Shown in pieces: positions 20,337-28,682 of a stretch of 64,000 nucleotides of DNA. Numbering within the stretch: position 1 is the first letter of the stretch; every line of letters begins with the position of its first letter. A model generated the notes under the pieces. That model made no database searches. It was not told the DNA's origin and saw nothing but the letters and a program-made list of their open reading frames with translations. This DNA is from Rubritalea marina DSM 17716. Lineage in GTDB: Bacteria > Verrucomicrobiota > Verrucomicrobiia > Verrucomicrobiales > Akkermansiaceae. A program made the translations under genes and the position numbers. The stretch is taken from NCBI RefSeq assembly GCF_000378105.1, contig NZ_KB899253.1, positions 62,001 to 126,000 on the forward strand, written 5' to 3'.

Positions 20337-23300
20337 ATGCGATTAATCTTACTATCTCTATGTTCGATACTGCTGCTGGTTCAGGTCAGTTTGGCCAGTC
20401 CGTCGCTTATTTTGGATGCTGCAAACACGGATACAATTCAGCTGGGTGCCGGGGAAGTTGTGGAGCAATGGGCTGACCTCTCTGGAAGAGAGAACCATGC
20501 GACCACTCTCGCGGGTGCTTTATTTTTGGACGAATCTCAGGCATCGCCAAGTGGCCTTTACGGCATTGATTTTGGGGAGACCTTGAATTCCTTGGAGTTG
20601 ATGGATGCAAGCGCAAGTGACAGTGTGTTCGATTTTAGCGATGCTAGTCGCAAAGGTTTCGCAATGTTTGTGGTGCTTCGAGTGGATGCGAATATTGGTG
20701 GGTGGAATGATGTGATTGGCAATAGCAGCAGTGTGAGCTCCGGATTCGGGATGCGATTCAGTGATGCCGGCACACTTGCAGCCTATCTGGGGGGAAGCAA
20801 AATTGAGAGATCAAGTGATGCGCAAGTAACTGTTGGAGATACTTTCGTTCTAGCTGCAAACTACAATGCTGCTTCTGAGCAATTTGATTTTTATGATTCA
20901 TTGAATGACAGCAGTACTAGTATCTCGGTGGCGCCTGGCGACTTTAGTAACGCCAGTGGATTGCTCCTTGGGGCGACGAATAATACTGGGCGCTTTCTCG
21001 ATGGAGTTGTGTATGAGGTTCAGCTATTCGAGCGACCTCTCAGTACGCGTCAATTTGCTGAAGAATATGGTAAACTTAAGCAGAAGTGGGTCGCTCCGGC
21101 TGAGACTGAGATCACACCGTTTCTGCATTTGAATGCAGCGAGCTCGGAGCTTGGCTATGCGGAGGGCGCAGTGATTGCGCATTGGTCCGATCTCTCGGCG
21201 AATGGCTACGATGCCACCAATGAGGGGACGATGGTGACTCATGAATTCGGCGAGCACTTGGCAGAGTCAGGGGTGGCTGGAGTGCATTTCGGCGCTGCTT
21301 CTAGCAATTTGGAGGTCTTCAACGAGGTGGAGCAGGATGCTTTGCTAGATTTTACTGGGAGTGCTTCGGCTAAATCAGGTTTTGCAGTTCTTGTGGCATT
21401 CAAGACTGAGAGTTTCACACCGTTATGGAATGATATTCTTGGTAGTGAATCCTCGTTTGGTGATGGATTTGCTCTGCGGATGAGTAATACGGGGCAACCC
21501 GTGGCGACCTTGGAGGGTGTTGATGCTCGATCCAGTAGCAAGGTAGAACTTGGTGAAACCGTGTTGTTCGCTTTTAATTATGATGCGGTGGCAGGGAGCT
21601 ACAGTTTTTGGGATTCTACCAGCGGGGAGACTCTCGTAGAGTCTGTGGTGGCGGCAGATTTTTCTGATAGTTCTCCCTTCACGATTGGGCGCGCGAATAA
21701 TGCTGGGCGTTATTTTCATGGTTCGATCTACGAGGTGAAAGTGTTTGATCGCAATCTGAGTGAATCTGAACTTGATCAAGAAAAAGAAGTCATGAGCACT
21801 GCGCTGGCTGGGCTGGAGTTGCCAGTCGAAGTGATTGGTGTGGAGGGGCGCATTGAAGAGCGAGAGCTGTATTTAAGCCCATCACAAGCGGCTGAGGCAA
21901 ATCGGCTATGGTTACAGGTCAATAATCTGGGATACGAGAATAAGGCGGCTGTCTCGATCAATCATGGAGCTTGGCTCAACTTGAACCACGACACGGTGGA
22001 GATGCAATACCAAGAGGCTCGCCGTGGAGGGATGGCGCATGGAGGTTTCAGTACCATTCGCTTGAGTATTCCGGTGGATGCTGGCCAGCTACTTGCTGGT
22101 TCGAACTCACTGCGCTTCCGCTTTAACGAATCGGATGGGCTGTCAGTGGGGTATCGCGTGGTGGATATGAACTTTCTTGATGATACTGGCGAACTCATCT
22201 TAGCAGACTCCAGATTCTATGAACAAGACCCCGATAGCTGGGAGGCACCCTACAGTGATCCAAGTTCAATTGCTGCAGGCAAGGTGCTGTGGGAAGAGGC
22301 TGGGCTATGGAGTCATCCTAAAGCTGATGGGCAGACTGGTTGGTGGTATGATCATCAAATCCCTGCAGCAAAGCCGATTTTGGCAAATTGCAAGGATTGT
22401 CATACCCGAGATGGGCGGGACTTGGAGATCTTTAGTTACAGTAATCAATCGATCATTGAACGCGCTCGCTTTCATCAATTGAGCGAGGAAGACGGTAAGT
22501 TGATTGCAAGCTACATCCGATCCCTTTCCGATGAGCACAGCACGGTTGGTAGGTACGGGCGACCATGGAATCCTCCCTTCCAACCAGGGCCGGCTGTTGC
22601 CGAGCGCCCTGTAGAGGAATGGGCCGCAGGGGCTGGGCTTGATGCCGTGTTGGATCGTGACGCGGATATGCGCGATTATTTATTCCCGAATGGTGAGATT
22701 TCGGAACAATCAGTGGATGCGTTTTTCGATGCCGATAAGATGCTCGACCACTCGCTCATCCCACTCTCGATTCAATTTCCAGATTGGAAACATTGGCTTC
22801 CAATGATTCACCCTAAAGACGCGTGGAGCCGGAACGGTTATTACGACAACCCAACAGCATTCAACAACAGTATCAGTGCCGATGTGAAAGGCAGTCTCAC
22901 TGAATTCCATGGCCATGTGGACGACATGCTGCAAAATGGTGTCAACTTTGAGACTTTGATTTCTGAGTACAAAGAGTTTCGTAGTGATTTACGTTTCTTT
23001 GTGGCATCAGGGGACCTGCTTGATAATGATGGTACTTATGAAGGTGGAGCACGCCATTGGCGAACCTTATGGGGTGACGCCAATAAGCAAGGTCTCGTGA
23101 TCGGTGATGATAGTGTGTACGATGCTGAGACACATTCTGTTGTTCGTCAGTTTGCAACTACCAGTCTCGCTAGGTTGCTGGCCGTAAAAAACTTTGAGTT
23201 CCACCATGAGCTAAATATTCAAGGGAGAGCAGATGAATACATCGACAGCTTGGATCAACCAGGCGACCGCCAATGGATTAGTGATGCCTACAATGTGTTT

Positions 23301-25676
23301 GAGACACCACCACACTTTAATGCTCCGTTGAATGGAGACCGGCATTATGATGGGCAGCTTCTCGCGACCGGGGAGTTTGAGTCTACGAATTGGTACCACC
23401 TTCAGTTAGTTCTAAATAGTGGTAACGGGCAGATGAGCCACAACTCACCTGTGGACTACAACTACACGCCTCCTTTTGTGTTGGACGCTTCCCATAGTTC
23501 GGGGATTTATGAACCACTGCGCTACTTCCTGACTTTAAATACAGCCTACCAAACAAAGACGTGGACGGGTGGAGAGGATCCGAATGATGGAAAAGGCTTC
23601 CGCATTCGTGTGATGGGGCCGTGGTATATTGCTAACATCAGTGATAGTACCCAACTCAATGGCTTTGGTTCAGGTTATATCCTGAGCTTGCTCGATCAGA
23701 TTGAGCCGGGAATGAGTCATTGGGTGATGAACGCCATGCTCGAATTGTTTCTGACCGAGATGGAACAAGATCATAACGATCTTAGTGGGTGGACTCGCTA
23801 TGACGTTGGTGGTGATTGGTCGCAGAATCTCGATCCCATTGCCACCACCACGACCTACCAAGACCCTCTAGATTCCAATAGTTCATTGGTGGCTACTGGT
23901 GACTGGGCCCATCGGATTTTTTACATGGTACGATTCCTTTCTGAACGGGGGGCGGATCCTGAGAAAATTGATCGACTCATCGATTGGGGGAAGGCTGCAT
24001 GGCCGAATCTGGCAGATGGGGCGATTGGCTGGGATGCCTTGCGTGATCAATCTGCTACCACACTTGCACTCGACACAGGAGGCAATAGCTTAACCGCGAC
24101 TAATGCTATTAGTGTGGTGATCCATAATGGCGGCGATACCCCAGAGGTGCAATGGTACGTGAATGATGTGCTGGTGGCATTGCCTTCCAGTACGAGCACC
24201 TTGCCATCGAGTTACTTCGATCATGGAGACACGATTCTGGTGAAAGTAACGAGTAACAGTGGTGACGTGCCAGCTGGGAATCGTGCGGTAGAGCTGAGCC
24301 ACACCCTACCTCAACTGGGTTTTCAGCTGACTCGCGATGGTCAGGTAGTCGAAGCAGGAACTGGTGCCTTGGCTGAGATGGGGGATGAGCTGTTGTTGCA
24401 GGTGTCCCCGATTTCTGGGCCTGTCTTATGGTTGGATGCGTATCATCTGAATGGGACCACTCTGCCAAGTGATGGAGAATCTATCAGCACTTGGAGGGAC
24501 ATGTCGGCGACTGAGAATCACGCGTTGGCTCCATCTGTTGAGTATCAGCCAGTATTCCGAAGTGACGCGTTGGATGGGAGACCAGGTGTTGAATTTGGAG
24601 CTCAAGATTTGGATGGGCTTGAATTGTTGGATGCCAATGAGGATGACTTCCTCGATGGTGATTTCACCCTCTTTATTTTGGGTTCTGGGGATGTTGAGAA
24701 TGGTCCATGGAATCTTGATTTGATTGGTAATGATACGTCTACAGGAAATGATGGTGAGGGATGGGGGCTACGCCTACGCAATAATAGTCGTTTGATCCCT
24801 ATCGTTGGTGGTGAAGACGGGAATCTCCCTGGCTATGACTACAGCCAATTTACCATTCGAATCAATAAATCAGGTAATGATGTTGCGTATTACTACAATG
24901 GCCAATACGTCACAACGCTGACGCTGACGGATGGGGCGAAACTCACAAGAGACGATAACCGTTCGACCTTCTTGGGTACGATTAGCTATACGAATCCAGA
25001 TGCTAGTGACTATTTCAAGGGCTTGTTGCATGAGGTGTTGATCTATGATCGCTCTCTAGAGCCCAGTGAAGAATCCTTGGTAGAAGGGTATCTATCTCAC
25101 AAATGGTTAGGTGGAGATAATCTCACTAGCGATAGTTACTATTTTGAAAACCCTCCGATTGAATTGACACTCCAGTCTCCAGATGGGCAGGAGAGAGTCA
25201 TCGATGAGTCACTCTTTGCTCAGCATCGCATTGATCTGGATTCGTTGATAGATTTTGGGGCTTACCAGCTAGATTTTGGCGGAGCGAGCGACATTGAATA
25301 CGAGATTTTTCTGCGGCAGAATTTTGAGGCTTGGGCCGCTGAGAATCACCCATCCATCGAGAATCGCTACGTGGATAATGATGGTGATGGCCAGTCGAAC
25401 TTTCTAGAGTATGCTCTTGGCTCAGATCCTGGAAATGCTGAGAGCATGGGAGGGATTGAGCTCGTGAATATGGAAAATGCCACAAGGCTCAGGTTGCCTG
25501 TGCGCAATGACGACGACAGCATTAAGTACACACTTCAGAGTAGTACGAACCTGGAGGATTGGGGAGGTGATACCCCGATTCTACCACACCCAAAAGCCAG
25601 TGCTACCGAGCTCATCGAAGTGGATTTCCCGCATGAAGTGAAAAAGTTTTATCGGATCAAGGTCGAGCCGCAATAA
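20337..25676 (+). CDS. Giant secreted protein with LamG-like domains and a c-type heme site
   Basis: The 1779-residue protein starts at ATG 20337 with a signal peptide (LILLSLCSILLLVQVSLAS). LamG/concanavalin-like lectin domains lie at about 25-245, 262-480 and 1362-1575; each opens with a LNAA/LDAY strand and a WSDLS-type motif and ends with a GxxxEVxxFDR-type strand. A cytochrome c motif CKDCH (Cys685, Cys688, His689) is followed by a helix ending IASYIRSL, as in class I cytochromes. Residues about 730-1290 form a large Trp/Asp-rich region I do not recognise. Near 1680 is a calcium-loop-like DNDGDGQSNFLEYALGSDP, a common C-terminal feature in Verrucomicrobia. It may be an outer-surface redox enzyme acting on polysaccharide; the function is not established. 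It is monocistronic. Confidence 0.8.
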   Translation: MRLILLSLCSILLLVQVSLASPSLILDAANTDTIQLGAGEVVEQWADLSGRENHATTLAGALFLDESQASPSGLYGIDFGETLNSLELMDASASDSVFDFSDASRKGFAMFVVLRVDANIGGWNDVIGNSSSVSSGFGMRFSDAGTLAAYLGGSKIERSSDAQVTVGDTFVLAANYNAASEQFDFYDSLNDSSTSISVAPGDFSNASGLLLGATNNTGRFLDGVVYEVQLFERPLSTRQFAEEYGKLKQKWVAPAETEITPFLHLNAASSELGYAEGAVIAHWSDLSANGYDATNEGTMVTHEFGEHLAESGVAGVHFGAASSNLEVFNEVEQDALLDFTGSASAKSGFAVLVAFKTESFTPLWNDILGSESSFGDGFALRMSNTGQPVATLEGVDARSSSKVELGETVLFAFNYDAVAGSYSFWDSTSGETLVESVVAADFSDSSPFTIGRANNAGRYFHGSIYEVKVFDRNLSESELDQEKEVMSTALAGLELPVEVIGVEGRIEERELYLSPSQAAEANRLWLQVNNLGYENKAAVSINHGAWLNLNHDTVEMQYQEARRGGMAHGGFSTIRLSIPVDAGQLLAGSNSLRFRFNESDGLSVGYRVVDMNFLDDTGELILADSRFYEQDPDSWEAPYSDPSSIAAGKVLWEEAGLWSHPKADGQTGWWYDHQIPAAKPILANCKDCHTRDGRDLEIFSYSNQSIIERARFHQLSEEDGKLIASYIRSLSDEHSTVGRYGRPWNPPFQPGPAVAERPVEEWAAGAGLDAVLDRDADMRDYLFPNGEISEQSVDAFFDADKMLDHSLIPLSIQFPDWKHWLPMIHPKDAWSRNGYYDNPTAFNNSISADVKGSLTEFHGHVDDMLQNGVNFETLISEYKEFRSDLRFFVASGDLLDNDGTYEGGARHWRTLWGDANKQGLVIGDDSVYDAETHSVVRQFATTSLARLLAVKNFEFHHELNIQGRADEYIDSLDQPGDRQWISDAYNVFETPPHFNAPLNGDRHYDGQLLATGEFESTNWYHLQLVLNSGNGQMSHNSPVDYNYTPPFVLDASHSSGIYEPLRYFLTLNTAYQTKTWTGGEDPNDGKGFRIRVMGPWYIANISDSTQLNGFGSGYILSLLDQIEPGMSHWVMNAMLELFLTEMEQDHNDLSGWTRYDVGGDWSQNLDPIATTTTYQDPLDSNSSLVATGDWAHRIFYMVRFLSERGADPEKIDRLIDWGKAAWPNLADGAIGWDALRDQSATTLALDTGGNSLTATNAISVVIHNGGDTPEVQWYVNDVLVALPSSTSTLPSSYFDHGDTILVKVTSNSGDVPAGNRAVELSHTLPQLGFQLTRDGQVVEAGTGALAEMGDELLLQVSPISGPVLWLDAYHLNGTTLPSDGESISTWRDMSATENHALAPSVEYQPVFRSDALDGRPGVEFGAQDLDGLELLDANEDDFLDGDFTLFILGSGDVENGPWNLDLIGNDTSTGNDGEGWGLRLRNNSRLIPIVGGEDGNLPGYDYSQFTIRINKSGNDVAYYYNGQYVTTLTLTDGAKLTRDDNRSTFLGTISYTNPDASDYFKGLLHEVLIYDRSLEPSEESLVEGYLSHKWLGGDNLTSDSYYFENPPIELTLQSPDGQERVIDESLFAQHRIDLDSLIDFGAYQLDFGGASDIEYEIFLRQNFEAWAAENHPSIENRYVDNDGDGQSNFLEYALGSDPGNAESMGGIELVNMENATRLRLPVRNDDDSIKYTLQSSTNLEDWGGDTPILPHPKASATELIEVDFPHEVKKFYRIKVEPQ

Positions 25677-27638: not shown

Positions 27639-28682
27639 ATGAATTCCCCTCTACTAAGATTGCTGAGCATCATCGCATGCTTGTGTGTCAGTATGGCGGA
27701 CAGCAAAGCCGCCCTATTGATGGATACCTATTTCACGACGGATCCAACGTATGATGATCCAGGTGACGCTACTGATGATTCCTTTGGTTATGATCTGCCT
27801 CTTGATGTTACGGTGTATGATGGCGATGAAATAAAGTTTAAAATCGACGTCGACAAAGGAACTTACGAGTGGGAGGTAAAGCGTGATAAGAACAGCCCGG
27901 CTACGAAGATTGAAAAGACTAGTGATAGTGCTGGGGCCTTCACGTTTGATCCGTCAGGGAAGGACTATGGGGCATTTATATTTGGAAGTCTAGATATCCA
28001 AGAAGGGGCAACAATTAAGTTGGACATGAAAGATGACGGTGGGACCTACCCCGGGTTTGCGATTCTAACCACTGGTGGCTTGTCGATTGCTGCCGAAATT
28101 GAATATGATGGAGAAGGCGATGGTCCGGGTGGGGATGTGTATTTGTATTCCCAGGGTACCATGACGCTTTCATCTCACATTTCCTTGGATGGAGATGATA
28201 ATCATGATGATAATATGGGCAATGGAGGAAACTTGATTCTTCAAGCCGATGAAATTATTCTGGACGGAGCGACTTTATCCGCAACTGGTGGACAGGGTGA
28301 TAAAAAGAATGATACTGGCGGAGCTGGTGGTAGTTTCTTAATTGATACGAACACATTGTCATTGGAAAATTACGACACAGAAGCTGGGCCGTATTTTGAT
28401 ATTCGCGGTGGCGAAGGTGACAAGAAAGATGGTGAGCTTGGTGATGGCGGAGTGGCTCGGCTGTATGCCGATGAAATCGACTTAGATGGAGTTTCTCAAC
28501 CCGGGGACGATTTTTCTGATCTAGACCTTTTTGTAGAGTTGTTCGACGCGTCTCATTCGGTGAATGATGCCAATGTTGGTTCCGCAATTTTAGTTACCAC
28601 TGCGGTGCCTGAGCCCAGTGCCACCGTGGCGTTGATGCTAGGAAGTGTGATGCTGCTGACGTCTCGCAAGCGCACCTTGTGA
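27639..28682 (+). CDS. PEP-CTERM sorting-domain secreted protein, beta-rich
   Basis: The 347-residue protein has a signal peptide (LLSIIACLCVSMADSKA). The acidic middle is rich in Asp and Gly (for example SLDGDDNHDDNMGNGGNL) and resembles a beta-helical exposed domain. The C-terminus AVPEPSATVALMLGSVMLL with a terminal SRKR is a PEP-CTERM tail. No other domain is recognised. It differs from the PEP-CTERM protein at 3638-4333 except in the tail. Confidence 0.8.
   Translation: MNSPLLRLLSIIACLCVSMADSKAALLMDTYFTTDPTYDDPGDATDDSFGYDLPLDVTVYDGDEIKFKIDVDKGTYEWEVKRDKNSPATKIEKTSDSAGAFTFDPSGKDYGAFIFGSLDIQEGATIKLDMKDDGGTYPGFAILTTGGLSIAAEIEYDGEGDGPGGDVYLYSQGTMTLSSHISLDGDDNHDDNMGNGGNLILQADEIILDGATLSATGGQGDKKNDTGGAGGSFLIDTNTLSLENYDTEAGPYFDIRGGEGDKKDGELGDGGVARLYADEIDLDGVSQPGDDFSDLDLFVELFDASHSVNDANVGSAILVTTAVPEPSATVALMLGSVMLLTSRKRTL

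Follow-up and report, generated by a model that had tools for sequence, protein, structure and literature searches.

Carbohydrate-binding cytochromes are suspected of taking part in the oxidative breakdown of polysaccharides by bacteria, and those known so far are, to our knowledge, hard to express and unresolved. The closest described systems are Cbp2D and Cbp2E of Cellvibrio japonicus and TERTU_2913 and TERTU_3803 of Teredinibacter, reported as secreted proteins in which redox domains are joined (CAZy X158, X183, X132 and X122), Cbp2D combining c-type cytochromes with a carbohydrate-binding module (CBM) and being implicated in polysaccharide breakdown (PMC8981238, PMC12542752, PMC10916295). 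X183 cytochromes are reported to have His/Met heme ligands (PMC8981238, PMC10916295) and the Cbp2D-derived CjX183 to reduce LPMOs in vitro (PMC8981238); a model revised after gene deletion has Cbp2D/E acting beyond electron transfer (PMC12542752). A small Pfam DUF lies at the N-terminal end of X132, given as DUF1587 in the legend of PMC8981238 but printed as DUF1687 in that of PMC10916295. For freshwater Verrucomicrobia MAGs, PMC5615132 describes PSCyt proteins that also carry CBM domains and often lie close to genes for sulfatases, their products being predicted there as periplasmic or cytoplasmic, not extracellular.

The Cellvibrio and Teredinibacter proteins resemble the one analysed here in carrying redox domains, and in Cbp2D cytochromes together with a CBM, within a single secreted-type protein. 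The latter is encoded in a window of 64,000 nucleotides, the whole stretch of Rubritalea marina DNA that was analysed, by a coding sequence at 20337..25676 (+ strand, as are all its parts given below) that translates into 1779 amino acids with no internal stop. This sequence opens with an ATG at 20337, immediately preceded by an in-frame TTG, sits within an open frame of 1792 codons and is the sole full-length copy found in the 3.0 Mb genome of the host. That it is a real gene and not a chance frame is borne out by 46% identity over the core in a genome of the same family (G029; E 9.7e-181) and by 153 related stretches in genome contigs. Residues 1-20 (20337..20396), read by eye from the translation, resemble a signal peptide, which makes the protein probably secreted.

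The first-pass annotation had described three LamG-like domains and one heme motif in this frame, and translation, Pfam and a motif count all agree with it. Laminin_G_3 (PF13385) matches the protein over its cut-off (80.8 bits against 27.6; whole-protein E 1.5e-22) in three stretches: domain 1 at 20400..21086 (Pfam residues about 116-238; 27.3 bits alone, just below the 27.6 cut-off), domain 2 at 21120..21806 (residues 346-478; 42.3 bits alone) and domain 3 at 24414..25112 (residues about 1494-1578; 30.5 bits alone). A linker of about residues 1245-1355 (24069..24401) has no Pfam match. The C-terminal module, about residues 1636-1779 (25242..25673; DNDGDGxSNFLEYALGSDP...), is shared with many other large ORFs in the genomes of relatives. 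Pfam offers nothing convincing for it (best E 0.22), and the short matches listed for 37 of 58 genomes, the host's own included, mostly fall here; it is perhaps a Verrucomicrobial surface or secretion module. Searches for relatives with the whole protein caught mainly this module and single LamG matches, and it was the query restricted to the core (residues 490-1245) that proved informative.

Seen through that query, the original view of the protein as a fusion of LamG and heme domains, both of which are indeed present, turns out to be too narrow. By sequence comparison, residues 493-1226 or thereabouts are one conserved and widespread core, and the LamG domains are optional accessories, since a 769-aa Caballeronia protein, apart from a lipoprotein-like N-terminus (by eye), holds the core alone. 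The core consists of a jelly-roll CBM-like domain, a short cytochrome-c-like domain and a Trp/Tyr-rich helical domain of about 490 residues, and belongs to an unnamed family. As had been proposed, neither Pfam nor NCBIfam has a family for the middle region that follows the heme domain, in the window protein or in its relatives; the boundaries suggested for it were slightly off, a jelly roll (493-630) preceding the heme domain and the helical part spanning about 738-1226.

An AlphaFold2 model of residues 489-1240, built from 72 sequences, reached a pLDDT of 92.0 and a pTM of 0.93. The jelly-roll domain (residues 493-630; 21813..22226) is recognised through PF14683 in relatives (47 of the 72 cores at E<=0.1, best 3e-6), the window's own segment falling under the cut-off (E 0.0061; 16.9 bits against 27), and through comparison of the model with known jelly rolls. 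Foldseek and VIA, run with the whole core, listed jelly-roll matches, and the first 130 or so residues of the model matched GH86 (Z 8.3), BcsB (7.9), PL4 rhamnogalacturonan lyase (7.4) and CBM35 (about 7). On the model, residues 493-630 probably share the fold of CBM35/CBM6-type modules and of PL4 domain III; they differ from these in matching at Z 6.5-8.3 over about 100 residues, near the level common for unrelated models, and in the window's Pfam score below cut-off. A search of PDB sequences with the core profile returned a protein phosphatase 1 regulatory subunit at just E 0.43, which was rejected.

The cytochrome-c-like domain (residues 636-735; 22242..22541) is matched by Cytochrom_C (PF00034) in 20 of 36 members at E<=0.05 (best 9.3e-5), the window segment itself staying below the cut-off (16.8 bits against 21.3; E 0.018), and a profile of the domain gave weak cytochrome c matches among PDB sequences (best E 0.0043). 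It carries the only CxxCH of the protein, the heme-c attachment site CKDCH at residues 685-689 (22389..22403), whose C685, C688 and H689 are kept in 86 of 86 extracted cores. Equally constant is His713 (22473..22475), found in 86 of 86 cores and in all 72 rows of the alignment used for conservation, profile and modelling. Both lie outside the patterns used to find the relatives, and both are also kept in two members recovered by protein search (L037, L038), in two recovered by HMM (L122, L123) and in 8 of 9 members from a viral collection, that is, in all 8 that cover the site (L128, L131 and L136 being aligned by eye); RPWNPP, by comparison, varies in 4 of those 8. Because it never varies and stands immediately ahead of the last cytochrome helix, H713 is probably the distal (sixth) ligand, making a bis-His, six-coordinate heme probable. 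The X183 cytochromes are reported as His/Met, whereas no Met is conserved in at least 80% of the 72 cores and the second His is invariant. H825, the only other His conserved at that level (70 of 72), was set aside as distal ligand because it is replaced in two of the 72 and in L122 and L123. The host genome has two matches to cytochrome c assembly proteins.

The helical domain (residues 738-1226; 22548..24014) is the part for which no known fold could be named, in keeping with the earlier statement that no catalytic domain is recognised. Modelled alone over residues 738-1240 (503 residues; pLDDT 89.9, pTM 0.92), it had no PDB match at E<=0.001 by Foldseek, and its best Z, 7.8, a level that the tool calls common, was to helical repeats, which were listed along with other unrelated helical proteins; it may be a new fold, although lack of a match is not proof. 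Two motifs stand out in the core alignment, RPWNPPFQPGP at residues 742-752 (22560..22592), mostly a scan pattern and hence of inflated conservation, and IQFPDWKHWLPMIHPKD at residues 812-828 (22770..22820), of which the first half is a scan pattern and which includes H825. W635, Y726, W744, W762, W817, W820, W980, W1019, Y1020 and Y1043 are invariant in all 72 rows, a conservation that is partly the product of selection because W744 and W817 lie inside scan patterns and W820 beside one. No second cofactor motif is conserved in the cores.

These patterns derive from the RPW and PDW motifs of a four-sequence alignment, whose conservation is inflated for that reason. The alignment joined the window protein with G029, a genome of the same class (G261; 34% identity over part of the core) and Caballeronia, represented by two plasmid records (32.6% over 73%) that have no annotated features under the one stretch looked at. 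The 153 related stretches come from a single scan of genome contigs with the patterns; the tool retained 80 of them, which occupy 79 loci and fall in Bacteroidota, Myxococcota, Burkholderiales, Acidobacteriota, Bdellovibrionota, Deinococcales, gammaproteobacteria and one Verrucomicrobial MAG. The 86 cores extracted include the window's and some near-copies (e.g. L050/L052, L051/L071, L063/L065). In all 86 the helical domain is joined to the heme domain, the scan patterns lying in the former, and relatives with a heme domain but without a helical one would therefore be missed. Across relatives the heme domain is the part closest to the window's, with a median identity of 52%, against 41% for the jelly roll and 45, 17 and 24% for three parts of the helical domain.

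Around the host of the window, the family is rare. The core was found in 5 of 386 genomes of the host's order, its own included, in none of the 10 other genomes of the genus listed in that survey, and in 3 of 387 genomes of a phylum sample when searched by profile (a single-protein search gave 4 of 387, of which one is doubtful). A single-protein match in G398 (E 9.5e-4) was discarded as a probable false match, since the profile of the 72-row alignment missed it. In a quick tree of 76 cores, with long branches, the window groups with three Myxococcota and 12 Bacteroidota (SH-aLRT 94, below the tool's support star), nested in a starred set of 28 (SH-aLRT 96), and the other Verrucomicrobial members stand at three other positions, a scatter that fits, with caution, horizontal transfer. 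Viral contigs yielded no relatives to the window protein and nine loci to the 72-row alignment; these nine contigs of the viral collection (L128-L136) carry the family either as phage-borne genes or as bacterial sequence filed as viral.

The distribution of the family also bears on its relation to the systems described above. The planctomycete-type cytochromes PSCyt1-3/PSD, some of which have LamG or CBM domains, share with the window protein, by the account in PMC5615132, a c-type heme domain and PF13385 in one protein. They are reported there in Verrucomicrobia, whereas nearly all of the 80 kept relatives of the core lie outside that group, and their Pfam models (DUF1549, DUF1553, DUF1587, DUF1592) match neither the window protein, nor the 72 cores, nor 36 heme domains. 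A link to DUF1592/DUF1549 proteins, which the first-pass annotation had named as the finding that would tell against it, is absent by sequence: the 13 families matched by the 72 cores include no PSCyt/PSD. The general idea of heme and CBM near sulfatases is thus already in print for Verrucomicrobia, and the core itself is unmatched by the PSCyt/PSD models. What probably sets X132 apart is the genome distribution of PF07626 (DUF1587/PSD3), not an X132 sequence: within the family to which the Marinibactrum genome belongs, this model matched 32 of 61 genomes and the core 1 of 144, and the core is for that reason probably not X132; the sole core-bearing genome of that family has no PF07626 match. 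By analogy, the core is comparable to Cellvibrio Cbp2D, but it probably forms a family of its own, compact and encoded by a single gene, in which the heme site is fixed and the helical domain lacks a known fold match. No paper describing it was among those listed in searches of the open-licence PMC literature, which is weak evidence of absence.

The sequences that surround the core point towards glycans. Among 57 N- and C-terminal extensions scanned, 27 matched Por_Secre_tail, 14 LamG_3 and 6 RicinB_lectin_2, with Big, Ig, PKD, PA14, H-type lectin and F5/F8-like domains also present (from the best 25 of 41 families), and the core hence occurs alongside glycan-binding modules of various kinds and, in many members, a tail for type IX secretion. 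Gene neighbourhoods were compared over 82 loci, with genes called by a simple longest-ORF script and most clusters left without annotation. Neighbour clusters were sulfatase at 9 loci, GH92 at 4, ROK at 4 and phosphomannose isomerase at 3, the sulfatase and GH92 clusters occurring at no Burkholderiales and no Acidobacteriota locus. In Tamlana fucoidanivorans (L048), the same-strand neighbours are a sulfatase, GH92, a sugar isomerase-like protein, an Fn3/Ig-type protein, MFS, ROK and a weak strictosidine-synthase-like match, the core gene overlapping the downstream Fn3/Ig-type gene by an ATGA, as it does the counterpart in Polaribacter filamentus (L047). At L058 and L059 it stands after a phosphomannose isomerase-cluster gene and sulfatase-cluster genes, two of the latter at L058 and three at L059. 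Pfam counts of neighbours, which cover 68 of 147 neighbours and 15 of 30 loci (L042-L059 among them, and L067), are not to be read as frequencies because these loci were partly picked as locus-like. As raw counts from a subset, these data are suggestive of a mannose-type polysaccharide locus (GH92, sulfatase, ROK, phosphomannose isomerase) around the core gene in some marine Flavobacteriia. Four Acidobacteriota loci (L087, L093, L094, L115) share two other neighbour clusters, of about 160 and 410-546 aa, near the family gene. The window gene itself lies among housekeeping genes, outside any polysaccharide locus, with pdxA-panD-secG-rhomboid on one side and an alpha/beta hydrolase on the other. 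Elsewhere in the window, a 347-aa ORF near the gene (27639-28682, +) has no Pfam match at E<=0.01, and a sulfatase gene at 1224-2561 (+; genome place C7:63371-64201) is one of 36 sulfatase places over cut-off in the host genome.

The initial suggestion of a lectin-like surface protein with heme acting on polysaccharide gains support from the CBM-like jelly roll of the core, the lectin extensions, the type IX tails and the PUL-like loci of Flavobacteriia, whereas its standing as an enzyme is something we infer. The best reading of the core is a glycan-tethered extracellular cytochrome, of which heme binding, export, tethering, electron transfer and catalysis are all predicted properties, and we tentatively prefer, at somewhat less than even confidence, a secreted, glycan-tethered single-heme oxidoreductase built around the three parts of the core. 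Judging from their folds, the LamG domains and the jelly roll would hold such a protein on the polysaccharide; one heme c would be bound at C685 and C688, with H689 as proximal ligand, as the motif implies, and probably H713 as the sixth; the helical domain, with its invariant Trp, Tyr and Asp residues, might form a substrate site beside the heme; and electrons passing through the heme could leave the sugar chain oxidised or oxidatively cleaved, alongside the work of hydrolases and sulfatases. Probable bis-His ligation nevertheless favours electron transfer over catalysis, and the lack of a known enzyme fold match for the helical domain or of a second cofactor motif, window segments below Pfam cut-offs, the housekeeping neighbourhood and the small share of loci with sulfatase or GH92 clusters also count against an oxidoreductase. 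It is possible instead, and next in likelihood, that the cytochrome, not itself catalytic, passes electrons to, or takes them from, another secreted redox partner, be it an LPMO, a dehydrogenase or a terminal acceptor, while the lectin domains anchor the two to the polymer, a role proposed for Cellvibrio Cbp2D. The two invariant His residues, suggestive of a six-coordinate heme, would suit this role, as would the LPMO reduction by CjX183 reported in PMC8981238. The host genome, however, has no match to AA10, the one LPMO family searched, no obvious redox partner recurs beside the family (the commonest neighbour cluster, SDR-like by eye, is at 10 of 82 loci), and a conserved helical domain of this size exceeds, in our judgement, what a relay needs.

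Many members are nearly devoid of extensions (Burkholderiales, with 6-7 residues after the core, and the core-only Caballeronia protein), and sulfatase and GH92 clusters are absent near such members, as might be expected if the heme served to remove peroxide, to sense gas or redox state or to export electrons at the surface, and the lectin domains served adhesion only; since extension-poor members still align across the jelly-roll region, and the extensions include lectin-type domains of several kinds, we consider this unlikely. Least likely of all is a non-redox glycan enzyme with a new hydrolase or lyase in the helical domain and a structural or regulatory role for the heme domain: a structural heme would hardly need the CxxCH and second His to be invariant in 86 cores, and the helical domain matched no CAZyme-like fold, though absence proves little, against which stand a large helical domain with aromatics and Asp joined to a CBM-like jelly roll and the GH92 genes near 4 of the 82 loci. 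Returning to the oxidoreductase that we prefer, its boldest form, a new class of extracellular carbohydrate oxidoreductases with a single bis-His heme c and a new helical fold, working without copper, flavin or PQQ and, in marine hosts, on mannose-rich and possibly sulfated glycans, is rather unlikely. More generally, the core family may perform redox chemistry on polysaccharides, and the mannose-type locus of some marine Flavobacteriia suggests a substrate and thereby a way to test for redox chemistry in the breakdown of marine glycans.

Two further observations concern the copies of the gene. An Aquimarina member (L070:7881-10876) is split over two overlapping frames, the heme site opening the second, through either a frameshift or a sequencing error. 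Two adjacent copies of the family occur in Ochrovirga, Burkholderia, Paraburkholderia and Bryobacterales (L059, L098, L099 and L104), the second copy in L104 running off the locus.
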